From a virus, in the IMG/VR virus record IMGVR_UViG_3300025122_005155, positions 1 to 30,383 of that record: a stretch of DNA of 30,383 nt; one strand, 5' to 3'. Positions 6,099 to 20,659 of this stretch are shown piece after piece. The notes under the pieces are model-generated. The model ran no database searches. It had not been told where the DNA came from and saw only the letters and a program-made list of their open reading frames with translations. The translations under genes were made by a program, and so were the position numbers. Each line of letters starts with the position of its first letter. Within the stretch, counting starts at the first letter, position 1.

Positions 6099-6118
6099 GA
6101 TATAATCGGTCAATTGGA

Positions 6119-6126: not shown

Positions 6127-6141
6127 CCCTAGAGAATTAAA

Positions 6142-8211
6142 ATGATAGTAAAGTCAGACCAGTTCAGGTACGCCATACGCCAGAGACTCTTATTCCAGAG
6201 AGTGATGGAGACGTCATCCTGGCCCTCGGATAAAAGGTTGCTCTTCGAACAAGACGGTGATCTGGATGATCCGACAACCTACGAGAAAGGTGGTTACAAG
6301 ATAGCCGGCCTGTGTGGGAACATTGTAACCGCTCTCCTAAGCATCCTCCCCGGAATCGGGAACGCCTTCGATGCGTGCGACTTCATCGCCCATATGGTCA
6401 GGGAGGAGCTCGTCATGGCGGTCCTCACCCTGGCGTGCCTCACCCCCGTCGTGGGGGAGGGGATCAAGCTAGCCTTTATAGCACCTTTCAAGCTCACCAA
6501 GACGGTTGGTGCGAGGGCGTGGTTAAACATGTTTAGTAGGTCACTCACAGGTGAGACGATCTACGCCATAGTCCGATCGGTCTCCCGAAATCCGGATGAC
6601 TTTCCGAAGGAGGCCAGTGCCGAGGTCCTGGATTACATCACCAGAATGTGGGGAGAGATGATCTCCATACGAGGTGGACTGAGTCCTCTAGTTGAGCTAT
6701 CCGGGAGGGTTGCCGACGACGCCGCCAGGGATGTTCCGGGTGCGGAGGCCTTCGCGGTGTTCCTGACGGCCATGGCGAGGTTGATATCTGAGCAGGTTCA
6801 CGACGCCGGCCCGGCCGGCGATGCGCTAGCAACTATGATCAGGCGCGCGCGCCGGGGAGGACTTCCGGACGGGGCAAAGCTCGCTGACGCAAGCGACAAG
6901 ATGCTACGGGAATCCCAGAGAATAGCAAGTGACATACAAAATATATTCGCTGGTAAAGGTGCTAAGATCATCGGAGCCAGTAGCAGCAAGACCGTGGTCA
7001 TGCGCATGTACACCGCCGTCGCAGACTCCATGAAGAATGGGATCAAGGCCATCGACGACGCCACACCCCTTCCAACTCAGATCAAGGGACTTGTGTCCAA
7101 CACCGACGATCTGATCCGGACCTGGGGGGAGGCCGCAGACGCGATGGGAATTCCCAGAATTGGATCCGTCCTCGATGATGTTGGAGTTCCTCAATCCGGC
7201 GCCACGAACGCGATAAAATTAACAGATGACGTGATAGATTACATGTCCGCGGTAGTAATCCCGCTAAGATCTCTAGAGCAGCAGGTCGCGCAGCATGCCC
7301 TCCGGGTGACCGAACCGTACTCCGCTTCCGGTGTTGTTCTTTTGAACCGGTCTACATGGAGGGGACTAGGACAAGGGACAGGAAAGTTGAAGGTGTCGAC
7401 GATAGAGCAACTGATAGCTCCAAGTATCAACTCTAGCAAGGTGTTTAAGGAAGTTAAAAACGAGATGCTCGAGATTTTGGGATCCATCAGGGCGATCCTC
7501 GCAGAGATGTTCTCGTCTATCAAGGATCCTAGTGACATTGTCCTCAAAGGAGAGAGGGGACTAGCTGAGATGACTGAAAAAATTGGAGAGAAAATTGCGT
7601 CGTGGTCTGAGAAGGCTAAACCGGCCATGGCCTTCAAGAGCCCCTTAGCCATGGCAAAGTCGTTGGAGCTGGCGACCATGGCGGTGTTTGGATTCGTGTG
7701 GATCATGATGAGATGGGGCTCGGTAAAGACCAGTAAGTTTACGGATTGGTCTCTTAAATTTTCACCTGATATTGTCAATGTCATGTTTAAGAAGATGGGA
7801 TTTGGAACCTTCGTGGATGACACTGTGCAGCAGATTGTCAGGTACCAGGTTCGAAAGTACCCAGGGTACAAGGTTGGGATCCAGGCCCTCAAGAGAATGT
7901 GGTCCACCGCGGCGACTGCGCATCAGGATGGTGATCCTGCTGTGGGTGCACTAGGAGGCGGGGCATTTCCGGGGGAACGGATCCCGTGGGAAATGTGGGA
8001 CCGGATAAACTGGAGCCGACTAGGAATGGACAACGAGGCCGCGGCGGTCGAGGAACTGGAAGATGTCTTAGATAATTTTGGAATAGACATGAGGAAGGAC
8101 ACCAGACCCGGTGATCTGAAGAACGGGAACCGGGATGGTCTGGACGGATCCGGAGGTGAGGAAGTCCGGGAGTCGCTACTGTATCCTATGACACTCGCGG
8201 AGATACTATGA
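6142..8211 (+). CDS. large putative virion protein with pre-toxin-like hydrophobic domain
   Basis: 689 residues. The N-terminus (about 4-36) is basic and amphipathic, module-like, and contains VME and LFE sites. Residues about 50-125 form a hydrophobic domain containing LLSILPGIGNAFDACDFI and LACLTPVVGEGIKLAF. This P-G-I-G-(N/D)...P-V-V-G-(E/D) layout is seen in pre-toxin linker domains of polymorphic toxins and in some large phage virion proteins. A long, mostly helical region follows (130-600), with another hydrophobic segment near 510-530 (LATMAVFGFVWIMMRWG). The C-terminus ends in TLAEIL, a further L-x-E. I infer a structural or ejected role. Its stop overlaps the metalloprotease start (ATGATG). 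Confidence 0.6.
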   Translation: MIVKSDQFRYAIRQRLLFQRVMETSSWPSDKRLLFEQDGDLDDPTTYEKGGYKIAGLCGNIVTALLSILPGIGNAFDACDFIAHMVREELVMAVLTLACLTPVVGEGIKLAFIAPFKLTKTVGARAWLNMFSRSLTGETIYAIVRSVSRNPDDFPKEASAEVLDYITRMWGEMISIRGGLSPLVELSGRVADDAARDVPGAEAFAVFLTAMARLISEQVHDAGPAGDALATMIRRARRGGLPDGAKLADASDKMLRESQRIASDIQNIFAGKGAKIIGASSSKTVVMRMYTAVADSMKNGIKAIDDATPLPTQIKGLVSNTDDLIRTWGEAADAMGIPRIGSVLDDVGVPQSGATNAIKLTDDVIDYMSAVVIPLRSLEQQVAQHALRVTEPYSASGVVLLNRSTWRGLGQGTGKLKVSTIEQLIAPSINSSKVFKEVKNEMLEILGSIRAILAEMFSSIKDPSDIVLKGERGLAEMTEKIGEKIASWSEKAKPAMAFKSPLAMAKSLELATMAVFGFVWIMMRWGSVKTSKFTDWSLKFSPDIVNVMFKKMGFGTFVDDTVQQIVRYQVRKYPGYKVGIQALKRMWSTAATAHQDGDPAVGALGGGAFPGERIPWEMWDRINWSRLGMDNEAAAVEELEDVLDNFGIDMRKDTRPGDLKNGNRDGLDGSGGEEVRESLLYPMTLAEIL

Positions 8212-8930
8212 TGATCCATGTCGAACAGAATGTTGACCTGGACGAGAATGACCTCGGGATCATAGAGGAGTTCTTCAGATTCTGCTGCGAGAGGTTGGAA
8301 CTTCCAGAGACTGTCTCCGTCCACCTTGTCGCCAACCGGGATGGTCTGACCACCGCGGGTGCGTACCACGTCGGTGAGTCAAAGTGTCGTGTCCTGGTAG
8401 GAGACCGGGCGAGGGCAGATGTAATGAGGTCCATGGCACACGAGATGGTTCATGCTCAACAGGATGGACTGGGACTTTTAGGTGGACATGTCCAGGATAT
8501 CGGAGGTGACATTGAGGATGAGGCCAATGCCGTTGCGGGCCGGCTGGTCAAGGAGTTCTCCTACGACTATGGTGTTGACAAGGTGTACGAGGGCCTAGAC
8601 CCTTCTAGGATCGACTTTAGGCAGCTAACACGAGGATTTCTGGTCGGTGAGTCCCAACCAGACTGCCAGATTGTCAACGAGGTCTCCGGTAAGGTCGACC
8701 CCAACAATCCCTTCGGCAATGTCGACATCGACTATCAGATCCGGAGGATGATCGGAGAGCTAATCTCGATGAACGGCCTGACGAATCGTTCGATGATTAA
8801 CGTTCTGCGTTCCCTGCAATTTCTTAGTGACTCCACCCACCGCTCCTGTGATGAGCTACTTCAACAAATGCTGGATGTCCTTAATCAGGAGATGACGAGT
8901 CGTCCTCATCCCCAGGAGATAGAAGTCTAG
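8208..8930 (+). CDS. HExxH zinc metalloprotease-like protein
   Basis: 240 residues. HEMVH at 78-82 is a classical zinc-binding HExxH motif, and DEANAVAGRL from residue 104 supplies a downstream Glu/Asn environment like the third-ligand helix of gluzincin or M78-type (ImmA/IrrE-like) peptidases. It sits at the end of the putative virion operon with a 4-base overlap with the 6142 gene. It could be a virion-processing or ejected peptidase. The C-terminal 100 residues are helical and unrecognised. It lacks the charged N-terminal module. The last 50 bases overlap the 3' end of the convergent protease gene. Confidence 0.65.
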   Translation: MMIHVEQNVDLDENDLGIIEEFFRFCCERLELPETVSVHLVANRDGLTTAGAYHVGESKCRVLVGDRARADVMRSMAHEMVHAQQDGLGLLGGHVQDIGGDIEDEANAVAGRLVKEFSYDYGVDKVYEGLDPSRIDFRQLTRGFLVGESQPDCQIVNEVSGKVDPNNPFGNVDIDYQIRRMIGELISMNGLTNRSMINVLRSLQFLSDSTHRSCDELLQQMLDVLNQEMTSRPHPQEIEV

Positions 8931-9642
8931 TTTTACTCTCTTCTATAAAGTTCCTTATTTCCCTTAGAGGAACAACAATAGCAAAATTCTCCATTAGGGG
9001 AAAAGATGCAGAGACTATCCCTATTAGTTCTCCTCTAGAGTTTAAAACAGGCGATCCGCTACTCCCTGAGCCTATGGGGATCGTATAAATGTCCATGTCC
9101 ATGTTTAAACTTCTTCCACTGTAAATACCTTCAAATATCAAGATAAAATTTGGCTCAAAAAGGGCATAAGGAGCAGCTATATTGTAAACTCTATCACCTC
9201 TTTTAGGTGGGATACGAGACAGTCTAATAGGTTTTCCAACATCGTTGTTAGATTCAAGCAAACAAAGATCTACATCTAGTTGAAAAGTTAAAATTTCTGC
9301 GTCAAAAGTCTCAAAATTGTAATTTATCACCTGGTTTTTTGTTTCAACAGTTGCTAATGTACTAGATTTTTGATCCATGTCACAAGAATGACCAGCCGTA
9401 AGAATGTATGACTTTCCATTATCTTTAAAGACAATAACACCCGATGAAGATTGAACGACACCAGAAATTTCTACTTGATCAGAGTTTTTTTCTACAATTT
9501 TAGACTCGTATAAAACAAATGATTCTGTGGGTAGTAGGTTGCTGCTATATATTTTTAAAGTTATGACAGACAAGAACAGAAATAATGTAACAATTATAAA
9601 AATTCTCGATAATCTGTTCATTTTTTTCAGAGTTTGACTCAC
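8881..9642 (-). CDS. membrane-anchored trypsin-like serine protease
   Basis: 253 residues from GTG 9642; ATG at 9621 (residue 8) is an equally plausible start and neither has a clear ribosome-binding site. Residues 13-32 form a hydrophobic signal anchor. The trypsin-fold triad is visible: TAGHS (His85), FQLDVDLCLLE (Asp125) and GSGSSGSP (Ser195). The fold probably begins near residue 58. It resembles small S1-family periplasmic proteases of the DegP/trypsin superfamily, but no PDZ domain follows. The protein would sit in the inner membrane facing the periplasm. It is AT-rich, unlike the gene it overlaps, and marks a sharp change in composition. It is the only gene on this strand between 8.9 and 20 kb. 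Confidence 0.8.
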   Translation of the reverse strand: MSQTLKKMNRLSRIFIIVTLFLFLSVITLKIYSSNLLPTESFVLYESKIVEKNSDQVEISGVVQSSSGVIVFKDNGKSYILTAGHSCDMDQKSSTLATVETKNQVINYNFETFDAEILTFQLDVDLCLLESNNDVGKPIRLSRIPPKRGDRVYNIAAPYALFEPNFILIFEGIYSGRSLNMDMDIYTIPIGSGSSGSPVLNSRGELIGIVSASFPLMENFAIVVPLREIRNFIEESKTRLLSPGDEDDSSSPD

Positions 9643-9714
9643 AAAAATAACTATGCCACTGTGGAAAAGATAGTTTATTGTGTATGTTTCATAAAAAAAC
9701 TATAGAATCATTTT

Positions 9715-9930
9715 ATGAAAAGACAAGTGTTTATCAGTGCAACTAGGAGCTCTATCTTAGAGATACCGTGGGATCTTTCTAAAGAACAGTCCATCATTTT
9801 AAAATCAGAAATTCTTAAATCTATTTCATCCGGATCAATATCTGGATGGCCCGTAGAGTTTGAACAGTTTTTAGACTCTTCTGAATTTGTGACTTTATCT
9901 GGTCCTTCAAAGGGGTGGTGGAAATACTGA
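9715..9930 (+). CDS. small hypothetical protein
   Basis: 71 residues from ATG 9715, with no clear ribosome-binding site. It starts KRQVFISATRSSILEIPWDL and ends with a Trp-rich SGPSKGWWKY. No motif is recognised. It follows the divergent gap from the serine protease (9643-9714), where ACTATAGAATCAT may be part of a promoter. It lies four bases before the deaminase GTG and is probably co-transcribed. Confidence 0.5.
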   Translation: MKRQVFISATRSSILEIPWDLSKEQSIILKSEILKSISSGSISGWPVEFEQFLDSSEFVTLSGPSKGWWKY

Positions 9931-9934
9931 GATT

Positions 9935-10318
9935 GTGACAGATTCGTCTACGTTATTGCAAATTGCAATTAGAGAGGCTGTTAAAAGTCCAATGTCATAC
10001 CGACATGGTGCTGTCCTGATTTCTAAAAATAAAATATTGGGATCCGGATTTAATAGTTTTAGTTCTAGTGTCGGAAACGTAAATTTCCAGGTTCCTGGAA
10101 GAAAGAAACCCTGTGTCCATGCAGAAGTTTCCGCTCTTAAGGGACTGAGGCACGATCAAATAAGAGGAAGCACCATGTTTGTCATTCGAATCAACAGAGA
10201 TCACGACCTAAAAATGAGCTATCCCTGTAAGAGATGTGTCTCTATGCTGAGAAGGAAAGGTGTTAGAAAGGTCACTTTTAGCACAGGAAACGGATATTTT
10301 GATCACATTTATCTTTAA
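9935..10318 (+). CDS. cytidine/deoxycytidylate deaminase-family zinc enzyme
   Basis: 127 residues from a GTG start. HAE at 62-64 and PCKRC at 97-101 form the zinc site of the CDA/dCMP-deaminase superfamily, where the Glu is the proton shuttle. Preceding GAVLISKNKILGSGFN is the usual core strand-helix. In phages, such enzymes usually deaminate dCMP to dUMP to feed thymidylate synthesis, but a tRNA or nucleoside substrate cannot be excluded. The protein is shorter than typical dCMP deaminases (about 170-190 residues), lacking their extended N-terminal zinc region. Neighbouring genes do not include a thymidylate synthase. Confidence 0.75.
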   Translation: MTDSSTLLQIAIREAVKSPMSYRHGAVLISKNKILGSGFNSFSSSVGNVNFQVPGRKKPCVHAEVSALKGLRHDQIRGSTMFVIRINRDHDLKMSYPCKRCVSMLRRKGVRKVTFSTGNGYFDHIYL

Positions 10319-10375
10319 CATTTTTTAAAGACTCGTTATTTTTATTCTTAACATAAAAGAACTTGAGCTAGTACC

Positions 10376-10852
10376 TTGAAAATATTTAAAAGAATACTAG
10401 AACTTAAAGATTACTTAAAAGAAGTAGAAGGCCCTAATAAGAAACTAGTTGTAACTAGTGGTGGCTTTGATCCGCTTCACGTAGGGCATCTTAGATGTAT
10501 CCTAGACTGTTCCAACCTGGCCGATATTGTCATAGTTGTAGTTAATGGTGATGGATTCCTAACAAGAAAAAAAGGAAAACCTTTTATGAACCTCGTGGAA
10601 AGGATGGAAATAATCTCCGGAATTAGAGGCGTTGACTATGTTGTCCCGTGGGATGACGGAAGTCAGACTGTGACTGGAGCCTTGGAAATTCTCAAACCTG
10701 ATATCTTTGCAAAAGGAGGAGATAGAGACTCTTCGTCAAATGTTCCGGAATTTGACATGTGTCAAAAAATAAAATGTGAGGTTGTTTTTAATGTAGGGGG
10801 TCACAAAATACAATCAAGTAGTTCGTTAGTCGAAAATTTTATCAATCATTGA
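10376..10852 (+). CDS. HldE/RfaE-like nucleotidyltransferase
   Basis: 158 residues from a TTG start; no other initiator lies upstream in a sensible place. It matches the cytidylyltransferase fold: SGGFDPLHVGHLR holds the HxGH motif (35-38), KGGDR at 113-117, and IQSSSSLV at 145-152 corresponds to the nucleotide-binding SSS motif. The combination KGGDR, VVFNVGG and KIQSSS is characteristic of the C-terminal adenylyltransferase domain of HldE, which makes ADP-heptose for LPS core. The kinase domain is absent. In context it may supply a nucleotide-activated sugar for the glycosyltransferases downstream (26.5-30.4 kb), as in other phages with surface-sugar genes. Confidence 0.8.
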   Translation: MKIFKRILELKDYLKEVEGPNKKLVVTSGGFDPLHVGHLRCILDCSNLADIVIVVVNGDGFLTRKKGKPFMNLVERMEIISGIRGVDYVVPWDDGSQTVTGALEILKPDIFAKGGDRDSSSNVPEFDMCQKIKCEVVFNVGGHKIQSSSSLVENFINH

Positions 10853-10889
10853 CCTCCGTTGAATACATATTTTTGACACGGAGATCGTC

Positions 10890-11363
10890 ATGGATGAGCA
10901 ACCTAATTTCGAAATTCTTTCTAAGTTATCGATAATTGAATCGATTCTTCAATCGGCTCCGGCTCTCAACGGAGAGTTTGAATCACTTGTAAAGGATGTT
11001 CAGATTATAAAAGAGTCTCAAGATCAAATCAAGGAGTCTTTGGCGTCAATTAAAAAATCGGTCTACGAACCTGATACGGGAGTTTTTTCCCGGGTCCAAA
11101 GGCTAGAAGAAAAAATTACTAGACAAGAAGAATTCGATCAATCGGTATCGATCATGTCAGATCGTCACAAAGAAATTTCCATATGGGTCGACGATAAGGA
11201 TAAATTAATAAGTGATCTGTCCAACGATTTAAAAATATCTTCACAGGAACTAGACAGATTGGTTCAATGGAAGGCTAACGTAAGTAAGATTCTCTGGGTG
11301 ATAAGTGCAACAGTAACAACTTTAATTGTCAAAACATTGTTTACTTTGTTATCTTCTTCATAG
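10890..11363 (+). CDS. coiled-coil, tail-anchored membrane protein
   Basis: 157 residues from ATG 10890 with GGAG eight bases upstream. Residues 5-130 have heptad-like hydrophobic spacing (LASIKKSV, RVQRLEEKI, LDRLVQW) and are probably coiled coil. Residues 133-152 (ILWVISATVTTLIVKTLF) form a single C-terminal membrane span. The layout resembles XhlA-like holin accessory proteins and other phage coiled-coil membrane proteins, but the coiled coil is longer than in XhlA. No endolysin or holin lies adjacent, so lysis function is unproven. Confidence 0.55.
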   Translation: MDEQPNFEILSKLSIIESILQSAPALNGEFESLVKDVQIIKESQDQIKESLASIKKSVYEPDTGVFSRVQRLEEKITRQEEFDQSVSIMSDRHKEISIWVDDKDKLISDLSNDLKISSQELDRLVQWKANVSKILWVISATVTTLIVKTLFTLLSSS

Positions 11364-11378
11364 TAGGAATAGCTTAGC

Positions 11379-12551
11379 GTGTCAATTTTCAGACAGCATA
11401 AATCTTCTTCAGATCGATCCGCATCAGATCGGAGACGACACAAGACAAAGATTGAAAAAGCCATTAAGGATGGCATTCATAACATTATTGCAGAAGAATC
11501 TATCATTGGAAAAGATGGAAAGAAGAAGATAAGAATTCCAGTTAAAGGAATCAAAGAATACCGCTTTGTCTACGGAGATAACAAAACAAATAAAAAGGTG
11601 GGTTCTGCCCCTGGAAAAAATATTAAAAGAGGGCAAAAAATTGGTGATAAAAGAAAAACTTCTCCTGCTCATGGCAATAAACCCGGAGATAAACCTGGCG
11701 AAGAATACTATGACGTAGAGGTTACTTTAGAAGAACTTTCTAGATACTTGTTTGAAGATTTAAACTTACCAGAACTTGAGAAGAAAAAATTCAAGTTCGT
11801 GACACAAGAAAAACCTAAAAGAAAAGGACACAGAAACCAGGGCATTAGAATCAGATTATCCAAGAAAGAAACCATTAAAAATAAACTTAAAAGAAAAGCG
11901 ATTGCCAAGAAATTAGGAACATATGACGAAGATTCTGATGAAAGATTTCCTTTTCATGAGTCTGATTTGAGATATCGACATTTTTCTAACAAGCCAAAGG
12001 AAAATAGTTGTGCTGTCGTCTTTTTTATTATGGATGTTTCGGGTAGCATGTCTACTCAAAAAAAATACATAGCCAGAAGTTTTTATTTCTTAGTCTATCA
12101 GTTCCTAAGGTACAAGTATGAAAACATAGAAATTATTTTTATTTCTCACGATACCAGCGCAAAAGAAGTTACTGAAGATGAGTTTTTTTCTCGGGGTTCT
12201 AGTGGAGGAACACTGATATCTCCGGCTCTATCTTTGATGGGAGACATAGTTGAAAAAAGATACCATCCCACCATGTGGAACATCTATGGTTTTCACTGTT
12301 CTGACGGTGACAATTGGTCAGATGACATCCCAAGAACATTAACAGAAACTAAAAAATTAATTGACATGTGTCAAGTTTACACGTTTTGTGAGATAACCCC
12401 AGAAGGAGAAACTTATGGAAAAGATTTTTCCGATACATACAGTACGTACTTGCCTTTTTATGGAAAGAAATTTAAAATTGTAAAAATTACTTCTCCTTCT
12501 GAAATATGGCCAGTTTTCAAGAAAGTTTTTGGAGGTAGAGAAGATGTATGA
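11379..12551 (+). CDS. yeaH: YeaH/DUF444 family von Willebrand factor A protein
   Basis: 390 residues from a GTG start with TAGGA upstream. The N-terminal half is basic and Lys/Gly-rich, including a GGTG-like flexible linker (75-110), as in DUF444 proteins. The C-terminal half is a VWA domain: MDVSGSMS gives the MIDAS DxSGS (219-223), followed by RSFYFLVYQFLRYKYENIEI, SSGGTLISPAL and WNIYGFHCSDGDNW, all close to E. coli YeaH. In bacteria YeaH works with the PrkA kinase and SpoVR in stationary-phase and nitrogen-stress responses. It is the first gene of the three-gene set here and overlaps spoVR by 8 bases. Confidence 0.92.
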   Translation: MSIFRQHKSSSDRSASDRRRHKTKIEKAIKDGIHNIIAEESIIGKDGKKKIRIPVKGIKEYRFVYGDNKTNKKVGSAPGKNIKRGQKIGDKRKTSPAHGNKPGDKPGEEYYDVEVTLEELSRYLFEDLNLPELEKKKFKFVTQEKPKRKGHRNQGIRIRLSKKETIKNKLKRKAIAKKLGTYDEDSDERFPFHESDLRYRHFSNKPKENSCAVVFFIMDVSGSMSTQKKYIARSFYFLVYQFLRYKYENIEIIFISHDTSAKEVTEDEFFSRGSSGGTLISPALSLMGDIVEKRYHPTMWNIYGFHCSDGDNWSDDIPRTLTETKKLIDMCQVYTFCEITPEGETYGKDFSDTYSTYLPFYGKKFKIVKITSPSEIWPVFKKVFGGREDV

Positions 12552-13854
12552 CTGGTCTGTATCAGAACTTAATAAGTGGGATAATAAAATATGTAAAATA
12601 GCTTCATCTTATGGATTAGACTGGTTCGAAATTGACTATGAGATCTGTGATTATTATGACATGATAGGAAATATGTCGTATACCGGCATGCCAACTCATT
12701 ATCACCACTGGAGTTTTGGAAAGCAATTTGAAAGAACCAGGTTTTATTACGACATGGGATTGGAAGGACTTCCGTACGAGATGATCATTAATTCAAACCC
12801 CAGTATCGCTTATCTCATGAGAGAAAACTCTCTTCCCATGCACATACTGACAATGGCACACTGTGTAGGACACTCTGATTTTTTTAAAAATAACAAAACC
12901 TTCCGTCATACAGATCCTGAAAATATAATTTCAAGATTTAGATCAGCAGCTGAGAGAATTAGAAAGTATGTAGAAGATACAACTATAGGAATTGAAGAAG
13001 TTGAAAATATCTTAGATGCCTGTCACAGCTTAAAGTACCAGCGAGATCGAGTATCCGGGGTTAAGAGATTGACACATGAAGAAATAGTAAATAAAAAAAT
13101 TAGAAAAATCAATCTTAAAGAAAAAGGGTACGAATATATTGTCCTGGACAAGTTTCCCTCTGAACCTGATTATAACATCCTACAGTTTATTAGAGACAAT
13201 AGCAGAAATCTTAGTGAGTGGCAGAAGGATATTATTAGCATAGTTGATAACGAGACAGAGTATTTTATACCTCAAGCACAGACAAAAATTATGAACGAAG
13301 GATGGGCATCGTTCTGGCACTATAAGATACTCCACGACCTCGACCTCCCTCAGGAGTTTCATTTTTCTTTTATAAAGACTCACAACCAGGTTATTAGACC
13401 ACACTTGGGTGGAATCAATCCTTACCATGTTGGTTTTAAAATTTTCGCTAAGATTGAAGAAGAAGAAGGATTGGAATCCTGTTTTTTTGCAAGGGAAGTT
13501 CACAATGACACGTCATTTTTAATGGAACACCTTGATGAAAAACTGTGTAAAGATTTAAATCTATTTTCTTTTTCTAAGAAAAAAGAATACTATTCTATTG
13601 ATGAAATTTCTGACGATGATGGATGGCAGGTCATTAAAAGAGATTTTATAAATTCAGTGGGCCTTAATGCTGTTCCAAAAGTTTACGTCGAGAGTGTTGA
13701 TAGGCATGATTGTTTGATGACTGTTAGACATGAGTTTGACGGTCGAGAGCTTAATTTAGAATATGCTGATAAGGTTTGTCACAAGATTTCAGACTTGTGG
13801 GGCGACGAAGTTAGGTTTTTTACAATAATAGAGGACGAAGATTGGGAAATATAG
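12544..13854 (+). CDS. spoVR: SpoVR/YcgB family protein
   Basis: 436 residues from ATG 12544, which has GGAGG six to seven bases upstream; an earlier TTG is less likely. Diagnostic segments of the family are present: GMPTHYHHWSFGKQFERTRF, INSNPSIAYLMRENSLPMH, AHCVGHSDFFKNN, then NEGWASFWHYKILHDL and a C-terminal domain at about 325-436. SpoVR is needed for spore cortex in Bacillus, and YcgB is its proteobacterial counterpart in PrkA regulation; its biochemical activity is not settled. It is full length or nearly so (E. coli YcgB is about 510). The His residues (HYHHW, AHCVGH) are retained. Confidence 0.93.
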   Translation: MYDWSVSELNKWDNKICKIASSYGLDWFEIDYEICDYYDMIGNMSYTGMPTHYHHWSFGKQFERTRFYYDMGLEGLPYEMIINSNPSIAYLMRENSLPMHILTMAHCVGHSDFFKNNKTFRHTDPENIISRFRSAAERIRKYVEDTTIGIEEVENILDACHSLKYQRDRVSGVKRLTHEEIVNKKIRKINLKEKGYEYIVLDKFPSEPDYNILQFIRDNSRNLSEWQKDIISIVDNETEYFIPQAQTKIMNEGWASFWHYKILHDLDLPQEFHFSFIKTHNQVIRPHLGGINPYHVGFKIFAKIEEEEGLESCFFAREVHNDTSFLMEHLDEKLCKDLNLFSFSKKKEYYSIDEISDDDGWQVIKRDFINSVGLNAVPKVYVESVDRHDCLMTVRHEFDGRELNLEYADKVCHKISDLWGDEVRFFTIIEDEDWEI

Positions 13855-13865
13855 TCCTTTAACAG

Positions 13866-13893
13866 TTGCTCGATAATATTTACTATTGATAAT
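13866..13893 (+). promoter_or_regulatory. candidate promoter of prkA
   Basis: TTGCTC (13866-13871) and GATAAT (13888-13893) are separated by 16 bases, a reasonable sigma-70 arrangement. The recurrent ATATTTAC motif (13876-13883) lies between them. The whole sits 13-40 bases before the prkA ATG and after a 51-base gap from spoVR. Confidence 0.35.
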
Positions 13894-13905
13894 CAGGAGT
13901 TTTAC

Positions 13906-15837
13906 ATGGCCTCGTCTGAACTTTTAGGTCTGATCAAAAAACATAGAAAAGAGAGGAAAGTTGACAAATTTTCCGGAACTCTTCTTGACTATCTAGAGAT
14001 TATAAAAGATGATGTTTCTATTTGTAATCTTGCCCATAAAAGACTTTACGATGCCATTGTAGAAAAAGGTATCGATCCAATGGATCCGTCAGATATAAGA
14101 TGCAAAAAATTATTTGAGGGTGAAAGTGTCCCAATTTATGAGTACTACTCACCTCATTTTTTTGGAATGGAAAGATGCATCTCTCAGTTTATGAGATTTT
14201 TAAAATCTGCCTCCATGAGAGGAGAAGAAAGTCGTCAAGTTCTTCTCCTTTTGGGTCCGGTAGGAGCAGGAAAGTCTGCACTGGTAGAAAGAACAAAAAA
14301 GATCCTGGAGAGCCTTCCTCCCATTTATCACCTCGAGGGATGTCCCATCAGGGAGGAACCTCTTCATTTGATTCCTAGGTCATTAAGATCTCAATTTGAG
14401 GAAATTCTAGGAATCAAAATTGAAGGTGATCTGTGCCCAGTTTGTCGCCACCGACTTCAAAATGAATTTAAAAATCAGTACGAAGATTTTCCAGTACAAA
14501 CATCCACGTTTTCAATCAGGGCTCGGAGAGGGATAGGAGTTGTTCCTCCAATTGATGCAAACACACAAGATGCTTCAATCCTTGTGGGATCTGAGGACAT
14601 ATCAAAGTTAGACCTATATCCTGAAGATGATCCAAGAGCTATTTCTTTAAATGGCGCGTTTAATGTTGGAAATAGAGGTGTTGTAGAATTTGTAGAGATT
14701 TTTAAAAATGAGATTGAATTTTTACATGTTATATTGACCGCCACTCAGGAAAAATCAATTCCATCCCCTGGTAAAAATTCAATGATCTACTTTGACGGAG
14801 TTATACTTTCACACTGCAATGAAGCTGAGTGGAATAAATTTAAGTCGGATCATACTAACGAAGCCATTCTTGACAGGATCGTGAAAATAACCGTTCCTTA
14901 CTGTCTAGAACTAGATGAAGAAATTAAAATTTATGAAAAGCTAATAGAGCAATCTGATTTTAAGGCACACATTGCTCCTCACACTCTCCGAGTCGCATCA
15001 ATGTTTTCTGTGATGTCCCGATTGAAAGAATCCCAAAAATGTGACATTCTTACCAAGATGAAGATCTACAATGGATCAGAGATCGTTGAAAAAGGAAAAG
15101 TTAAAAAGGTTGACATAAAGGATCTGAGAGAAGAGACTCGTGAAGAGGGCATGACTGGTATTTCTACAAGGTTTGTCATGAAGTCCATTGATAACGCTCT
15201 TTCTGACTCCACAAACGGGACAATTACCCCCATATCGATCAGGGAATCCCTTGTCAAGCAAGTAAAAGAACAGGTCGTAGCTGAAGATGAAAGAACTAGA
15301 TACCTTGAACTACTCCAAAAGGTTATACACGAGGAATATTTAAACCTTCTCGAAAAAGAAATAACTAAAGCATTTGTCATGGCCTACGAGGAACAAGCTG
15401 AGTCACTTTTTGATAACTACTTAGATCATGCTGAAGCTTTTGTTAACAAGACAACCCTCAAAGACGATACCACTCGAGAAGATCGAGATCCAGACGAAAA
15501 TTTCATGAGATCAATCGAGGAACAGATTGGAATTACAGGTTCAGCTAAAGACGGTTTCCGAAACGATGTTACTAGTTATATGTTCGCTCTCTTAAGGAGG
15601 GGAAAGAAGGTTAAGTGGAACACTTACGGACCTCTCAAGGATGCCATAGAAGGTAAGCTTATGTCGTCTGTTAGGGAGATAGCAAGGATTGTGACCAAGT
15701 CAAAAACTAGGGATAGAAAACAAAAAAAGAAGTATGATGACATGGCTCGGACCCTCATAGAGGATTATGGATACAATGAAGACTCTGCTGAAGAGATTCT
15801 CAAATATGCTGCAAACCATCTATGGAGAGACAACTAA
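13906..15837 (+). CDS. prkA: PrkA family AAA+ serine protein kinase
   Basis: 643 residues, the same length as bacterial PrkA/YeaG. ATG 13906 has AGGAG upstream. An N-terminal domain precedes the Walker A motif GPVGAGKSA (117-125). Then come the Cys-containing LCPVCRHRLQ, the family-specific FSIRARRGIGVVPPIDANTQDAS, LNGAFNVGNRGVVEFVEIFKN and the Walker-B/sensor region ILTATQEKSIPSPGKNSM. The C-terminal part (about 400-640) is the kinase-like domain. The protein would phosphorylate Ser/Thr targets in the cytoplasm; bacterial targets are only partly known. With YeaH and SpoVR it reconstitutes the complete cellular set in one phage operon, in the order yeaH-spoVR-prkA. Confidence 0.93.
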   Translation: MASSELLGLIKKHRKERKVDKFSGTLLDYLEIIKDDVSICNLAHKRLYDAIVEKGIDPMDPSDIRCKKLFEGESVPIYEYYSPHFFGMERCISQFMRFLKSASMRGEESRQVLLLLGPVGAGKSALVERTKKILESLPPIYHLEGCPIREEPLHLIPRSLRSQFEEILGIKIEGDLCPVCRHRLQNEFKNQYEDFPVQTSTFSIRARRGIGVVPPIDANTQDASILVGSEDISKLDLYPEDDPRAISLNGAFNVGNRGVVEFVEIFKNEIEFLHVILTATQEKSIPSPGKNSMIYFDGVILSHCNEAEWNKFKSDHTNEAILDRIVKITVPYCLELDEEIKIYEKLIEQSDFKAHIAPHTLRVASMFSVMSRLKESQKCDILTKMKIYNGSEIVEKGKVKKVDIKDLREETREEGMTGISTRFVMKSIDNALSDSTNGTITPISIRESLVKQVKEQVVAEDERTRYLELLQKVIHEEYLNLLEKEITKAFVMAYEEQAESLFDNYLDHAEAFVNKTTLKDDTTREDRDPDENFMRSIEEQIGITGSAKDGFRNDVTSYMFALLRRGKKVKWNTYGPLKDAIEGKLMSSVREIARIVTKSKTRDRKQKKKYDDMARTLIEDYGYNEDSAEEILKYAANHLWRDN

Positions 15838-15847
15838 GGATCAGCTT

Positions 15848-16093
15848 GTGACTGTTCAAACCAATGACATTGGTAGTAAACTTTTTAAGGCTGCCAAAGC
15901 TCATTTTGAATCTGAGAGAGATGATGCACTAGCAACATTAGCCATTTATTTTAGAAACCCAGTTGCCATTGGTGATCATCCAAATTTCTTAGAAGAAATA
16001 AAGTCTCAAATTTCTAAATTATCCAGTGCTGAAGAAGCTATTGAATCTCTTGAAAAAAACTTTAGTAATTTTGAAAAATCTATTTTAAGATAG
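15848..16093 (+). CDS. small conserved-type phage protein, helical
   Basis: 81 residues from GTG 15848, with AAGGAT about eight bases upstream. The frame is open back to 15767 inside prkA, but that start has no ribosome-binding site. Features are FRNPVAIGDHPNFLEEI and a flanking Ala/Glu-rich helical pair (SSAEEAIESLEKNF). I recall similar N-P-V-x-I-G-(D/E)-H-P small proteins from marine T4-like phages; their function is unknown. It follows prkA by 10 bases. Confidence 0.6.
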   Translation: MTVQTNDIGSKLFKAAKAHFESERDDALATLAIYFRNPVAIGDHPNFLEEIKSQISKLSSAEEAIESLEKNFSNFEKSILR

Positions 16094-16106
16094 TAAGATT
16101 CATCAG

Positions 16107-16331
16107 ATGCTTTCTAAAGAAGCTAAAATATTTAAATCTTCTTTTCCCGGATGTGAGATTAAGGAAGAAATAGATGGAAATGAAAGAGTTGTGTGGATCT
16201 ACTGGCAGACTCTTAACGGATTGTTAAAAATTGACATTCGACCAGATAGAATAGATGATATTGAAAAATTTACGAAAACTCTTTCAGAAAGAATGTCAGT
16301 TTTAGTCTCTATAGATCAAGAGTTCTCGTGA
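16107..16331 (+). CDS. small hypothetical protein
   Basis: 74 residues, with no recognised motif. The sequence has a beta-strand-rich middle (ERVVWIYWQTLNGLLKIDIR) and a helical C-terminus. It overlaps the following GTG start by four bases (GTGA), which implies co-translation. Charge is mixed and there is no signal peptide or membrane segment. Confidence 0.5.
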   Translation: MLSKEAKIFKSSFPGCEIKEEIDGNERVVWIYWQTLNGLLKIDIRPDRIDDIEKFTKTLSERMSVLVSIDQEFS

Positions 16332-16585
16332 AAACTACACAAAAAACAACTCATCCAAAAAATCAAAAATTTGATCATGATGAAATCATTCTCCGATCGA
16401 AGATTGAGATCGGAGATGAATACGAGTACTCTATTCACCATGGTGGAATTGGAAAATCGTTACACGTACTAGCACCTAGTAAAGAGGAAGCTTCGAAACT
16501 TAGAAAAATTATTCCCAGTTATTTCTGTGGATGTAGAACTATTGTCACATACTACAATATAAAAGATGACTTTAGTGACGTGTAA
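16328..16585 (+). CDS. small hypothetical protein
   Basis: 85 residues from a GTG start overlapping the previous stop. The central GDEYEYSIHHGGIGKSLHVLAP looks like a beta-hairpin, followed by KEEASKLRKIIPSYFCGCRT. The C-terminus is acidic. No domain is recognised. It is the last gene before the tRNA, and a 31-base gap follows. Confidence 0.5.
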   Translation: MKTTQKTTHPKNQKFDHDEIILRSKIEIGDEYEYSIHHGGIGKSLHVLAPSKEEASKLRKIIPSYFCGCRTIVTYYNIKDDFSDV

Positions 16586-16592
16586 AACTAAA

Positions 16593-16600
16593 ATATTTAC
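16593..16600 (+). promoter_or_regulatory. ATAYTTA motif upstream of the tRNA
   Basis: ATATTTAC, continuing as TATACAATAATATC, lies 24 bases before the mature tRNA 5' end. It closely resembles the copy before prkA (ATATTTACTAT...AT). It may drive the tRNA-tilS unit. Confidence 0.35.
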
Positions 16601-16616
16601 TATACAATAATATCAT

Positions 16617-16693
16617 CGGCCCCTAGCTCAATAGGTTAGAGCACCCGGCTCATAACCGGTAGGTTCTGGGTTCAAGTCCCAGGGGGCCGACCA
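16617..16693 (+). tRNA. tRNA with CAU anticodon, best read as tRNA-Ile2 (lysidine-modified)
   Basis: A complete 77-base cloverleaf with encoded CCA. The acceptor CGGCCCC pairs fully with GGGGCCG, the D-arm is GCTC/GAGC, the anticodon loop is CTCATAA (CAU at 16651-16653), and the T-arm is CTGGG/CCCAG with TTCAAGT. CAU alone allows Met or Ile2. The acceptor C4-G69 and C5-G68 pairs are positive determinants for TilS in E. coli, and the body resembles E. coli tRNA-Ile2 more than tRNA-Met. A TilS gene starts 23 bases downstream. After C34 is changed to lysidine this tRNA would read AUA. The C1-G72 pair is unusual for elongator tRNAs. Confidence 0.93.
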
Positions 16694-16715
16694 ATTTTAT
16701 TTTTTTGGAGGAAAG

Positions 16716-17327
16716 GTGATTAAAAGTAACGTTAAGATCCCTGATCAAGTAGCAATTGCTGTTTCAGGAGGGCCTGATTCAATGGCGATTTTAGATTTTC
16801 TTAGACGCGGCCCAAAAGAGATTCAGGTTCTTCATTTCAATCACGGAACTGACCATTCTTTTGAAGCCGAAGAGATTGTAAGGGACTATTGCGACAGGTG
16901 GAAGATCGATCTCAAGGTTGGAAATCTTACTGAGAAAGTTACTAAGGGATCTTCTCTTGAAGAGTTTTGGAGAAAAAACAGGTATAATTTTTTTGAAAGG
17001 TCAACCAAAAGACCGGTGATTACCTGTCATCACCTCGATGACGTTGTTGAGAATTGGGTATTTACCTCTTTAAACGGGAATCCAATGATGATCCCATCTA
17101 AGAGGGGAAAGTACATCAGACCGTTTCTGGTGACCACTAAGAAGGACTTGCTTAGTTGGTGTGATAGAAAAAACGTTCCTTATATTATCGATCCAAGCAA
17201 TAGTGACACGTCATTCATGAGAAACTTAATTAGACATGAACTCATTCCAGTTGCATTGAAAGTAAACCCAGGACTGTCTAAGGTGATTAGAAAAAAGGTG
17301 TTAAATCTTCCAACTATTTACCAGTAA
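16716..17327 (+). CDS. tilS: minimal tRNA(Ile)-lysidine synthetase
   Basis: 203 residues from a GTG start, with GGAGG a few bases upstream. It belongs to the PP-loop ATPase family: SGGPDS (17-22) is the ATP-binding motif, and HFNHG (40-44), CHHLDD (104-109), RPFL (135-138), DPSNSD (159-164) and RNLIRHELIP (169-178) follow TilS in order. TilS modifies C34 of tRNA-Ile(CAU) to lysidine, changing its reading from AUG to AUA and its charging from Met to Ile. The C-terminal substrate domains of E. coli TilS (432 residues) are absent, so this is a catalytic-core-only form. Placement directly after the cognate tRNA supports the assignment of both. Confidence 0.9.
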   Translation: MIKSNVKIPDQVAIAVSGGPDSMAILDFLRRGPKEIQVLHFNHGTDHSFEAEEIVRDYCDRWKIDLKVGNLTEKVTKGSSLEEFWRKNRYNFFERSTKRPVITCHHLDDVVENWVFTSLNGNPMMIPSKRGKYIRPFLVTTKKDLLSWCDRKNVPYIIDPSNSDTSFMRNLIRHELIPVALKVNPGLSKVIRKKVLNLPTIYQ

Positions 17328-17366
17328 TCCCACTGTCAGTATGATAAACTAGTGAGGAAAACGTTA

Positions 17367-17642
17367 ATGCCTGATCTTAAATGTAAGAAATGGAATCGAT
17401 TGGGAATATTTGACTCTTATGAGACTGCTGAAGATAAAAAAAATGATCTTCTTAAATCTTTGCTTGAAGATTCTTTAAAGAAATCTAGCACAAAAAAAGA
17501 TAGTGATGACAAAGAATCTGAGTTTCTTGTCAAAATAAAGAGATGTGGTCCTAAGGGAAGTAAGTTTCAAGTAAAGTATTGGGTTGACAACCCTCAAGAT
17601 CTTAAGAAAAATAAGGGAAAAAAGAGATCTAAACGCCGATAA
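17367..17642 (+). CDS. small basic hypothetical protein
   Basis: 91 residues from ATG 17367; AGGA lies 10 bases upstream, and an in-frame GTG at 17352 is an alternative. The first part (WNRLGIFDSYETAEDKKNDL) and the later strand pattern EFLVKIKRC...FQVKYWV suggest a small alpha-beta fold. The C-terminus is a Lys/Arg tail (KNKGKKRSKRR) that could bind nucleic acid. It is similar in style to small phage proteins of unknown function. The stop is followed directly by the chaperonin frame. Confidence 0.55.
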   Translation: MPDLKCKKWNRLGIFDSYETAEDKKNDLLKSLLEDSLKKSSTKKDSDDKESEFLVKIKRCGPKGSKFQVKYWVDNPQDLKKNKGKKRSKRR

Positions 17643-19016
17643 TTGTCGTATGGTCTCTATCACAAAATGGAACAGAGTGAACAATTTTCTAAAGTTTTAT
17701 TAGATCTAGATTTCCAATCTGAAATTCTTAAGTTTTTCAATAAGAAAATTGTTGATAAAAACTTTATAGTCTATGATGGTTCTAACATCAGGACAACCAG
17801 CAAGATGTACCTTCCCGCATCTTTTACTTTTGATAACTCTTCAGGGTTAGAAAAAATATTCTCTAGTTTTATTCTTGATGGATATTATCGATCAGAATTA
17901 TTAGCTCCTGGATCTGGACAGTTGTGTATTAAGTTTTTATTCTCCCTAATTGAAAAGTATAAAAAAAACTCCCTCTTGGGACTGAACGATGAAAATTTTC
18001 ACGGAGATGTTGATTTTTTTGTATCAGATGTAAAAAAAATTTTTCAACAGAGTTCTAGGTTTTCCACACTAAAAGATCTGAAAGAAATACTTCTCCGGGC
18101 CTCGGGAGAAAAAAATTTAGTTGAAACATGTCTTAAATGTCTTGAATTATCAGGAATGACAGGAACTATTCACATTCTAGATCAGGTAACTGATAAGACA
18201 ATATTAGAAAGAAATGGTGGATATACTTTTAAACTTCCTCAGAAATCTTATCATGGCTCATGGCAGAGAAGAAACACTCAGTGCCTGGTCATAGATGGAA
18301 TTATAGAATCTATCTCAGAAATTCACGGACTCTTAGAGACTTTATCTTCATCAGACATCCCAGTGGCAATCATAGCTAGATCATTCTCTCCTGACGTCGT
18401 CAATACAATTTTAGTGAACAATGCTAGGGAAACTTTAGATGTTGCCTTAGTGTCTGTAGGGTATGAGATAGAAAATACTAATATCTTAGTTGATATTTCT
18501 AAAGTTGTCGGAACAGATTTAATTTCACCCCTGAAAGGTGACTTGGTATCAACAACAAAGTTAGAAGAGTTAAAAAACACAGATCTTTTAACTCTTCATG
18601 AGAACAACTTAGTCATAGTAAATAATTCTACTTCCCCTTCTGTAAAATCACATCTTGATAGAATAAGAAGAAAAATATCTACATCTGAGGATCTTGGTGT
18701 TAGAAAAATACTAGAAAAAAGAATAAAATCTCTTCAACCTTGTTGCGTCTCAGTTAAACTTTCTCGAGATATAGGTCAAAACTCTAGGGAAAAACTAGAC
18801 TACATGTTTAGAATTACAAAGTGCATCATAGAAAATGGAATATGTGATCCTTGTGATTCTTTAATTGCAGATAGTAAATATTTTCCAAACCTGACGGAAG
18901 AAATATCCCGTGTTTTTAGTCCCGTTCAAGTAGAATCGTCTATTTTAAACGCCTTGTCTTTGTTTAAAATATTTAAGAATATTGACCATACAATATTATT
19001 GGATCGAGAAATTTAA
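17643..19016 (+). CDS. divergent, probably ATPase-dead GroEL-like chaperonin
   Basis: 457 residues from TTG 17643; ATG at 17667 (residue 9) is an alternative and neither has a clear ribosome-binding site. The GroEL domain order can be followed. The equatorial part is degenerate, with SELLAPGSGQLCIKF (85-98) where GroEL has its GDGTTT ATPase signature. The intermediate part has GEKNLVETCLKCLELSGMTGTIHI (155-178). The apical domain has RNGGYTFKLP (190-199), CLVIDGIIESISEIHGLLETL, and IPVAIIARSFSPDVVNTILVNNARETLDVALVSVG (239-273), close to the GroEL apical fold. The C-terminal equatorial part (340-457) has RRKISTSEDLGVRKILEKRI and PVQVESSILNAL. The GAAT and GGG motifs are missing. It is shorter than GroEL (about 548). 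It may be a specialised phage folding factor or a regulator of host GroEL. Confidence 0.75.
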   Translation: MSYGLYHKMEQSEQFSKVLLDLDFQSEILKFFNKKIVDKNFIVYDGSNIRTTSKMYLPASFTFDNSSGLEKIFSSFILDGYYRSELLAPGSGQLCIKFLFSLIEKYKKNSLLGLNDENFHGDVDFFVSDVKKIFQQSSRFSTLKDLKEILLRASGEKNLVETCLKCLELSGMTGTIHILDQVTDKTILERNGGYTFKLPQKSYHGSWQRRNTQCLVIDGIIESISEIHGLLETLSSSDIPVAIIARSFSPDVVNTILVNNARETLDVALVSVGYEIENTNILVDISKVVGTDLISPLKGDLVSTTKLEELKNTDLLTLHENNLVIVNNSTSPSVKSHLDRIRRKISTSEDLGVRKILEKRIKSLQPCCVSVKLSRDIGQNSREKLDYMFRITKCIIENGICDPCDSLIADSKYFPNLTEEISRVFSPVQVESSILNALSLFKIFKNIDHTILLDREI

Positions 19017-19483
19017 TGCAAGGAATAAAACATCTCATAGAATGTCACTGTATACTTCCTCAGTATAGAAAAAGAAAAGATGCAGTTTTTCATAAGTTCA
19101 TTGTGTTTTCAGTCATAGTTGACAACGACAAAGTTGTAGAAAAAATTGCTAAATGTAACAACTGTGCAGCTCTTCACCGAATTACAGAAATTTGTAAGTC
19201 TGAAATTGTTATTGGAAAAGAGGATGTTAACTGTGTTTCATCTATAGACGATATCAAAACTTGTGTTCCAAACGACCTGTGTGATGTTTTAGAATCTTAT
19301 GATGTCGACCTTCCAACTTGGGAACACGCTCAGTTCATTCTTGAGAACAGGTTGTGGGGAGATAAGTTAGTGTTAACAAAAGAAGAAATAGATTCTAAGA
19401 TCTATGGGAAGATTTTAACTGTAAAAAATAGGAACTCATACAAAGTTGAATCATTTAGTATGGAATCTGAGATGGAAAGGTAG
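19016..19483 (+). CDS. conserved-type phage protein with cysteine pairs
   Basis: 155 residues; ATG 19016 overlaps the chaperonin stop (TAATG). It starts with ECHCILPQYRKRKDAVFHKFIVFSV and continues with AKCNNCAALHRITEIC. The CHC and CNNC pairs could make a zinc site. Later it has DLPTWEHAQFILENRLWGDKLVLT. I recall closely similar small proteins in marine T4-like phages, with unknown function. Overlap with the chaperonin gene suggests coupled translation and perhaps a common process. Confidence 0.6.
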   Translation: MQGIKHLIECHCILPQYRKRKDAVFHKFIVFSVIVDNDKVVEKIAKCNNCAALHRITEICKSEIVIGKEDVNCVSSIDDIKTCVPNDLCDVLESYDVDLPTWEHAQFILENRLWGDKLVLTKEEIDSKIYGKILTVKNRNSYKVESFSMESEMER

Positions 19484-19485
19484 AG

Positions 19486-19737
19486 ATGAAAACAACGGGT
19501 AAAAAAGTTAGCTCTCACCACTATGGAGTTACAGAAGAGGAAAAAAAATCACAGACTTCTATAAAGTCTAGACAAATAGTTTCTGAAATCTTAGATTTTG
19601 GAGTTACTCAAGAACAGATATTACAAATTATAAAATTGCTAGCTTTAAATATTGAAAATAGAGATCACATGTTATCGTTAGTTGAATCTGTTAATAGCCT
19701 TATCGTGGAAGATCACACCGATAAAATAATCACTTAA
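19486..19737 (+). CDS. small helical hypothetical protein
   Basis: 83 residues from ATG 19486, two bases after the previous stop. The N-terminus is Lys/Ser-rich and probably flexible. Residues 25-75 are helical and amphipathic (SRQIVSEILDFGVTQEQILQIIKLLALNIENRD). No motif or membrane segment is visible. It lies in the same unit as the two genes before it. Confidence 0.5.
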   Translation: MKTTGKKVSSHHYGVTEEEKKSQTSIKSRQIVSEILDFGVTQEQILQIIKLLALNIENRDHMLSLVESVNSLIVEDHTDKIIT

Positions 19738-19741
19738 GGTG

Positions 19742-19749
19742 ATATTTAT
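19742..19749 (+). promoter_or_regulatory. ATAYTTA motif upstream of the H1-like gene
   Basis: ATATTTAT lies 32 bases before ATG 19774 in a 36-base gap. The same transcript could continue into the tmRNA, which follows the H1-like gene by two bases. Confidence 0.3.
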
Positions 19750-19773
19750 TAATCGTACAGGAGGAAAAAAACT

Positions 19774-19959
19774 ATGCCAAATGATGAATTTTTATCTCTC
19801 TGGGAAGAACTAAAGGTTCTTGTCGAGAGTTTGGAAGATGATATAACCAAAAATGCCTTAGGCAACCAATCTGCAGGTGTAAGAGCGAGAAAAGCTCTTA
19901 GACTGCTTAAGCAAAAATCTCAGAACCTGGTAAAATCTTCCCTTGAAAATAGAAAGTAA
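19774..19959 (+). CDS. small histone-H1/Hc1-like basic protein
   Basis: 61 residues from ATG 19774, with a strong AGGAGG upstream. The C-terminal half, LGNQSAGVRARKALRLLKQK, matches the G-N-x-A-A-x-R-x-R-K...L pattern of bacterial H1/Hc1-like proteins. The N-terminal half is an acidic helix (SLWEELKVLVESLEDDI). These proteins are thought to bind DNA or nucleoids; Chlamydia HctA is the best-known relative. Here the Lys-rich tail typical of Hc1 is missing. It could act on host or phage DNA, but the short length limits confidence. It ends two bases before the tmRNA. Confidence 0.5.
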   Translation: MPNDEFLSLWEELKVLVESLEDDITKNALGNQSAGVRARKALRLLKQKSQNLVKSSLENRK

Positions 19960-19961
19960 AC

Positions 19962-20323: not shown

Positions 20324-20324
20324 C

Positions 20325-20582: not shown

Positions 20583-20627
20583 CGGACCTCCCGACAGGTA
20601 GTTTGGTTAAATAGTATCGTGAGAGAA

Positions 20628-20635
20628 ATACTTAT
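20628..20635 (+). promoter_or_regulatory. ATAYTTA motif upstream of phoH
   Basis: ATACTTAT lies 32 bases before the PhoH start in the divergent gap 20583-20659. The same gap must also contain the reverse-strand promoter of the sigma-like gene. Confidence 0.3.
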
Positions 20636-20659
20636 ACAAGAAGAACGAGGTTAAGTTTT

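Follow-up and report, generated by a model that had tools for sequence, protein, structure and literature searches.

A stretch of viral DNA of 30,383 nucleotides, the whole of the IMG/VR record IMGVR_UViG_3300025122_005155 and called the window in the following, contains a complete set of genes for YeaH (DUF444), SpoVR, and PrkA, each of them near full length and in frame. Comparison with related contigs shows the block to be a YeaH-SpoVR-PrkA cassette, intact and belonging to a tailed phage with T4-like relatives; it is conserved among these phages and, in one phage clade, has been passed on as a unit. PrkA, YeaH, and SpoVR are among the more widespread stress proteins of bacteria, and there is no agreement on their biochemical function. 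The favoured explanation for their presence in phages, to which we assign a probability of about 0.45, is that the triad would act as one ATP-driven machine, used in infection to preserve a nutrient-limited host for a large phage. An earlier interpretation of the same DNA, made from its letters alone and referred to here as the sequence-only reading, had recognized the set; added to it now are the phage-specific gene order, the recurrence of the set in other phage groups, and the finding that the family is already present in public phage records.

Identity of the three genes

The triad and its motifs are located as follows.

10890 to 11363, plus strand: coiled-coil or membrane-like open reading frame (ORF), ending 15 bases before yeaH and likely on the same transcript
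11379 to 12551, plus strand: yeaH/yhbH (DUF444), 390 amino acids, von Willebrand factor A (VWA) domain with a metal ion-dependent adhesion site (MIDAS); PF04285, E 2.1e-112, 376.7 bits, over the cut-off
12033 to 12047, plus strand: MIDAS motif DVSGS of YeaH, residues 219-223 (MDVSGSM from residue 218)
12544 to 13854, plus strand: spoVR from its likely ATG start; PF04293, E 6.6e-124, 414.2 bits, profile positions 1-404 of 407
12859 to 12873, plus strand: H-C-V-G-H of SpoVR, residues 107-111 in alignment A3, candidate metal ligands; both histidines invariant in alignments A1 and A3
13294 to 13302, plus strand: N-E-G of SpoVR, residues 252-254 in alignment A3, with Glu253 as candidate third ligand; E and G invariant in alignments A1 and A3
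13906 to 15837, plus strand: prkA, 643 amino acids, AAA+ ATPase and PrkA C-terminal domain; PF08298, E 1.5e-146, and PF06798, E 1.8e-82
14254 to 14277, plus strand: Walker A motif GPVGAGKS of PrkA, residues 117-124; GPVG[A/S]GKS in 75 of 75 window-type phage PrkA proteins

Because of these E-values and the conservation of the set across dozens of viral contigs, a chance resemblance to the named families is excluded. The sequence-only reading of a complete yeaH-spoVR-prkA set was borne out in its coordinates, in the gap of 51 bases between spoVR and prkA, and in its motifs. The overlap of yeaH and spoVR which it had described amounts to 8 bases when spoVR starts at the ATG at 12544; this is probably the real start, rather than the TTG at 12529 given in the ORF list, because GGAGGT sits directly upstream of it. 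AGGAG is found upstream of the prkA ATG at 13906. The triad looks like one translationally coupled unit, perhaps beginning at the ORF at 10890-11363, which has no Pfam family and precedes yeaH in several close relatives (for example L002-L005, L007, and L010).

For YeaH the best NCBIfam model was spore_yhbH with 395 bits, below the cut-off of 468, and the AlphaFold2 model of the protein resembles VWA domains (Z 16.9, root-mean-square deviation (rmsd) 2.7, 159 aligned residues). The MIDAS stretch reads M/L-D-x-SGSM in all 79 YeaH proteins of the window-type phages, that is, of the relatives which carry the set as in the window. In SpoVR the motifs HYHHW and AHCVGH are both intact, and the C-terminal domain PF24755 scored marginally below its cut-off (27.4 versus 27.6 bits). 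PrkA reached 488.5 bits for PF08298 and 277.3 bits for PF06798, where the cut-offs are 25, and has a solved structural relative in 9xip (E 1.7e-98). The Walker A lysine, K123 in the window protein, is a lysine in all 228 sequences compared. PHROGs families without an assigned function already match the triad (phrog_19072, phrog_35217, and phrog_22605).

Conservation of the cassette in viral contigs

A survey of co-occurrence had been proposed with the sequence-only reading. A SpoVR-led search found relatives in 171 viral contigs, from which the best 80, being 51-67% identical, were taken; a PrkA-led search yielded the best 80 of 148, and a YeaH-led search 21 loci. As the three scans share contigs, some of them near-identical, their counts are not independent. 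A profile search of the ORFs found YeaH-SpoVR-PrkA in 77 of the 80 SpoVR-selected loci and in one more in which YeaH is divided over two ORFs, the two incomplete loci being interrupted by contig ends. The set was likewise complete in 78 of 80 PrkA-selected and 20 of 21 YeaH-selected loci, with the three exceptions again at contig ends. Among 78 loci the median distance was -4 bases between YeaH and SpoVR and 2 bases between SpoVR and PrkA. A query with Thermus phage PrkA against the viral contigs returned two stretches which fit a pattern, neither of them a relative.

Phage origin of the block

The window is itself a 30 kb fragment, and the search for portal proteins covered the records of its relatives. 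A T4-type portal was present in 14 of 16 records with window-type sets (15 viral, one from the bacterial collection); the two records without one are fragments of 127 and 109 kb, neither with a terminase match. The possibility that long contigs would reveal a piece of bacterial chromosome, named with the sequence-only reading as the finding that would overturn its phage operon, was thus examined on relatives of up to 293 kb, and these have T4-type portals. In the window the tail fibre carries an S74 chaperone domain at its end.

Host DNA, either as a bacterial fragment or as a functionless passenger in a phage, is a highly improbable source of the block. Homologues are common in bacteria, SpoVR being found in 48 of 199 Pseudomonadota genomes (G001 excluded), and Enterobacter phage LAU1 has YeaG-YeaH at the extreme end of its record in a manner resembling a host flank. 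This locus (L084) lies at the start of a 30,772-base record labelled complete, beside lambda-like tail genes, and is probably host flank. Against such an origin of the window-type sets stand the T4-type portals on the same contigs, the single phage clade, the nonbacterial gene order, and reading frames which stay intact among relatives at 51-67% identity, one relative with YeaH in two ORFs apart. Bacterial-chromosome origin was ruled out on the portals of the relatives' contigs, the single clade, and the gene order. None of the bacterial loci examined combined the phage order with phage-clade sequences outside a prophage. The sole locus of the bacterial collection in phage order, L090, belongs to a contig of 305,838 bases binned to a Methylococcaceae metagenome-assembled genome. 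This one contig holds a T4-type portal, SpoVR, and PrkA and is a phage contig; the bin shows no other full PrkA.

The GC content of the window changes in steps, from about 55% (1-9000) to about 35% (9000-22000) and about 53% (22600-26500). A higher GC content upstream and a lower one over the triad is also seen in the relatives L003, L005, L010, and L042, and the step is small in L016, L022, and L056. A chimeric assembly at the step near 9 kb was rejected as the simplest reading in view of the similar drop in some relatives.

Gene order, phylogeny, and number of acquisitions

The order YeaH-SpoVR-PrkA of the window differs from that of every complete bacterial set examined. Among 80 loci of the bacterial collection 57 had all three genes on the same strand, in 56 of them as PrkA-YeaH-SpoVR, the remaining one being the phage contig L090; the other 23 consisted of SpoVR alone (12), YeaH-SpoVR (6), and loci with PrkA on the opposite strand (5). 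A set of 19 Pseudomonadota loci comprised 16 complete ones, all PrkA-YeaH-SpoVR, and three with SpoVR only, and Thermomicrobium roseum has the same bacterial order. It is also found in a second viral group, obtained with a huge-phage SpoVR query (119 contigs, best 80 taken), where 77 of 80 loci showed the bacterial order and three were incomplete; 14 long records of this group contained a T4-type portal in eight cases and a terminase in 11.

Trees were calculated for 74 rows drawn from 144 loci having all three proteins at full length (23 window-type phages, four Thermus phages, three huge phages, and 44 bacteria). In each of the three trees, for PrkA, SpoVR, and YeaH, the window-type phages are united in a single clade, with support values of 100, 100, and 97, respectively, in the Shimodaira-Hasegawa-like approximate likelihood ratio test. 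The huge phages L085 and L088 group with the gammaproteobacterial type and L087 elsewhere, and the Thermus phages stand apart, their own grouping being supported with 100, 100, and 45; a quick tree method and long branches for the Thermus, L087, and L220 rows leave these exact positions unsure. The phage triad, intact and conserved, is nested inside the bacterial diversity, which fits a host-derived set retained by phages. Since the second group of large phages and the phages of Thermus both branch outside the window-type clade, the trees can be read as repeated recruitment, with the whole set taken up by phages at least three times and a long vertical inheritance within the window-type clade. 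The order common to window-type and Thermus phages would then be either convergent or very old.

Known systems and prior record

The closest known counterpart is the bacterial prkA-yeaH(yhbH)-spoVR operon (YeaG/YeaH/YcgB in E. coli, PrkA/YhbH/SpoVR in B. subtilis), which consists of the same families at full length, adjacent on the same strand and with the key motifs, and differs in having PrkA first. The Thermus phages YS40, YS40_Isch, phiLo, MN1, and Lalka8 carry all three genes in the order of the window, with one additional ORF between SpoVR and PrkA in YS40 and YS40_Isch, unlike the window. Their SpoVR is 21-23% identical to that of the window (three phages compared), and these phages occupy a separate position in the trees; in Lalka8 and YS40 terminase or portal genes are close to the set. 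The related Thermus phages Lalka27a/b were left out of the comparison. Thermus phage records partly annotate the genes as SpoVR and serine kinase, as in YS40, and a passage in a paper on T. aquaticus lists the genes without their order (PMC4605624).

Complete sets with kept motifs like those of the window are also found in the huge uncultured phages LR745206, LR756504, and LR756511, in bacterial order, and the set of LR756502 is split. The proteins of LR745206 and LR756504 are of gammaproteobacterial type. In LR756504 (L088, 4740-9857) YeaH and SpoVR are separated by two additional ORFs, and one of the four huge-phage SpoVR proteins (a split match in L088) contains a long insert at the NEG motif which looks intein-like. 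For the Ralstonia jumbo phage RsoM2USA, SpoVR (ORF28) and PrkA (ORF30) are given two ORFs apart and a VWA-domain protein as ORF19, which is not named YeaH in the passages concerned (PMC8504454); this phage did not turn up in the phage collection searched.

Of the sporulation-related viral genes in viromes of the Eastern Tropical North Pacific oxygen-minimum zone, spoVR was reported to be the most abundant, and it was interpreted as a means of host-state modulation (PMC8940887). The text of that paper contains none of the terms prka, yeah, and serine protein kinase, and its passages on spoVR describe no cassette, order, or phylogeny. The statement in the sequence-only reading that no characterised phage system of this kind was known therefore stands in so far as the system is uncharacterised, and falls in so far as it was taken to be unrecorded, given the Thermus phage records and the virome spoVR. 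Searches of open-licence literature yielded no description of the triad as a conserved phage cassette or of its phage-specific order.

A proposed protein-remodelling machine

The sampled phage groups take the three genes together, and one lineage keeps its own order, which suggests that the triad acts as a unit that pays off in infection; phages seem to benefit from carrying the whole of it. In the favoured explanation the three proteins would assemble as one ATP-driven protein-remodelling machine, with PrkA as an AAA+ ring pulling on protein substrates, YeaH as a VWA/MIDAS adaptor, and SpoVR as a metal-site subunit of zincin-like fold which binds or processes the substrate. Made during infection, this machine would preserve the proteome and the viability of a nutrient-limited, slow, or nongrowing host until the large phage has finished, in the window-type group alongside a GroEL-like protein, transfer-messenger RNA (tmRNA), and PhoH. 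A comparable principle is known from the MoxR/VWA pairs, in which an AAA+ ATPase acts with a VWA-domain partner; PrkA belongs to a distinct AAA+ family, and the SpoVR partner is peculiar to the triad.

Work on the bacterial proteins fits such a unit. YcgB, YeaH, and YeaG were noted in 2007 as a co-conserved triplet in bacteria (PMC2375023), and in E. coli the loss of yeaG or of yeaH has similar effects when nitrogen starvation is prolonged, the two genes being regarded as functionally linked (PMC4664914). Under these conditions cells without yeaG show a higher metabolic activity and a lower viability (PMC4664914), and YeaG has been termed a molecular brake (PMC6299236). From this phenotype a phage copy would more probably conserve a starved host than accelerate it. 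The E. coli data point the other way from the suggestion in the sequence-only reading that the phage may keep starved cells productive.

The proposed part of SpoVR is derived from its predicted structure. Sequence searches of the PDB gave no known structure, and the AlphaFold2 model had a mean predicted local distance difference test score of 89.4. When chains were realigned with VIA-align, 14 of the first 17 rows carried titles of metallopeptidases or ACE/ACE2, and Z values of 7-11 were obtained to many zinc peptidases, among them ERAP1 (Z 9.8, rmsd 3.8, 163 aligned residues), Pz peptidase (9.3), LTA4H (7.6), and FisCP carboxypeptidase (7.0). A gluzincin site has two histidines on one helix and a downstream glutamate on a second active-site helix. 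The residues H107, H111, and E253 of SpoVR are invariant in alignment A3 and lie in the model on two helices, 98-117 and 249-266, as a gluzincin site would have them, and are candidate ligands. SpoVR is at most a zincin-fold metal protein rather than a proven peptidase.

Several observations weigh against this explanation. Foldseek found no match for the SpoVR model (best E 0.34). The catalytic glutamate of HExxH is absent, the motif being HCVGH in window-type phages and HVYGH, HVLAH/HVLGH, or HAxxGH in others, and E. coli-type SpoVR has one extra residue between the histidines. In hhalign, SpoVR reached a probability below 1 against profiles of DUF5700 (8 proteins) and M32 (13 proteins), and two unrelated controls did at least as well; one DUF5700 (L312) and two M32 proteins (L327, L330) showed no HExxH in the motif print, and possible wrong frames weaken this test. 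Three of 81 SpoVR members match DUF5700 weakly, with a best E of 0.0079. An assignment of SpoVR as a zinc peptidase by sequence was rejected, with empty PDB searches and hhalign at the level of the controls. The E. coli effects have been attributed to the kinase-like C-terminal domain (PMC4664914). Finally, the GroEL-like, tmRNA, and PhoH neighbours are missing in many triad-bearing loci, from which it follows that the triad does not need them. A more far-reaching form, in which the triad would be a portable protein-quality machine of phages (a split AAA+ unfoldase, a VWA adaptor, and a zincin-fold SpoVR) forming with tmRNA, the GroEL-like protein, and PhoH a proteostasis island for the infection of starved, barely growing cells, is doubtful. 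If SpoVR were its catalytic or substrate-holding subunit, the lack of both kinase and protease activity in purified PrkA alone would be accounted for as well.

Alternative roles have been weighed against the remodelling machine. The sequence-only reading saw a phage stress kinase, where PrkA would phosphorylate host regulators and reprogram the starvation response (rpoS, toxin-antitoxin modules), assisted by YeaH and SpoVR. Such a role is possible but unlikely, and the kinase label proved weakly founded: a 2026 paper describes B. anthracis PrkA as an AAA+ protein which oligomerises with ATP and shows neither kinase nor protease activity when purified, and explains the absent kinase activity by a kinase domain that lacks a P-loop (PMC13001217). 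The equivalent of K426 of E. coli YeaG is a lysine in 75 of 75 window-type phages, as a kinase role would have it, and an asparagine in 5 of 5 Bacillus-type and an aspartate in 5 of 5 Thermus phage PrkA proteins, so the constancy of the catalytic lysine of Hanks-type kinases is not found across the family. A weak in vitro kinase activity is cited in a review (PMC6299236), and E. coli yeaG is required for the rpoS-dependent nitrogen-starvation response, with mutants in the AAA+ domain or in the kinase-like C-terminal domain both failing to complement (PMC4664914). A kinase of this kind leaves the joint travel of the three genes unexplained.

A late role in morphogenesis appears rather improbable. 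An AAA+/VWA machine that assembles or matures virions, in the way that MoxR-type ATPases insert cofactors or remodel complexes, would suit the position of the set between portal/minor head genes and TerL in Lalka8, near TerL in YS40, and, in the window, with a block of possible head-internal proteins on one side and a tail fibre on the other. In the window-type relatives checked, by contrast, the portal is about 10 to about 100 kb away, and closely similar sets are found in bacteria, which have no virions to assemble. The T4-type late promoter motif TATAAATA occurs 0 times in the window, where 0.8 are expected, and is scattered in the relatives with none consistently upstream. A scan for sigma-70 promoters and terminators came out near shuffle level (51 versus 40.8 and 13 versus 8.4, respectively). 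Counter-defence or superinfection exclusion, directed against other phages or host defence, is very unlikely: AAA+ proteins paired with VWA domains occur in prokaryotic conflict systems, but none of the three proteins matched a PADLOC model at E <= 1, and the bacterial homologues show starvation and sporulation phenotypes. The role of the triad is testable by deletion in the culturable Thermus phages which carry the same set, and it bears on how phages multiply when their hosts are starved, as bacteria in nature commonly are.

Neighbouring genes and further observations

Downstream of the triad the window contains two conserved protein-coding neighbours and a tmRNA.

17643 to 19016, plus strand: divergent GroEL-like protein, 457 amino acids, conserved neighbour; phrog_5725, E 2.9e-15
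19962 to 20323, plus strand: tmRNA with tag ANNSNYNDYALAA; ARAGORN, RF00023 with 117 bits
20660 to 21991, plus strand: PIN-PhoH protein, conserved neighbour; phrog_2765, E 2.3e-106, Pfam PhoH and PIN_4

The GroEL-like protein matches the NCBIfam GroEL model with 1.6e-15, far under its cut-off, and has a tblastn match in 32 of the 80 SpoVR-selected viral loci, mostly at 23-35% identity among relatives. The tmRNA is present in 17 of 25 chosen related loci, with tags that vary (for example ANDDFNQIAIAA and ANDNVAYDYALAA). Their presence near the triad suits a protein-quality theme, and many triad loci are without them. A tRNA with CAT anticodon, called as Met (16617-16693), lies directly before a protein with a TilS N-domain (16716-17327; 127 bits, cut-off 93.6), an arrangement also seen in L002 and L003; the tRNA could be a tRNA-Ile2 accompanied by a lysidine synthetase dedicated to it.

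Upstream, at 737-8211, at least six consecutive plus-strand ORFs of unlike content share by eye a similar short N-terminal peptide (for example NEKELRRIIRSEVKAL, TKSEIYGIIREELTPI, NEKNLRSLVRDVLLEAY), which resembles the capsid-targeting/prohead-protease tags found on internal head proteins of T4; by this analogy they may be ejected proteins. With a strict pattern the peptide is detected twice in the window and, among seven relatives scanned, singly or as a pair in L003, L016, L022, and L042. The large ORF at 6142-8211 has a weak match below cut-off to a membrane-translocation domain over about 50 residues (E 0.0016) and could be a membrane-inserting ejected protein or a chance match. The sole long gene on the minus strand in the central part of the window, at 8881-9642, encodes a trypsin-like serine protease whose N-terminus includes a hydrophobic stretch; many relatives likewise have it upstream of the triad and on the minus strand. 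An ORF at the contig edge (232-705, minus strand) ends in a stretch resembling Flp/type IV pilin (GMTEYVIILVAIAIVCI), which is unusual on a phage contig.

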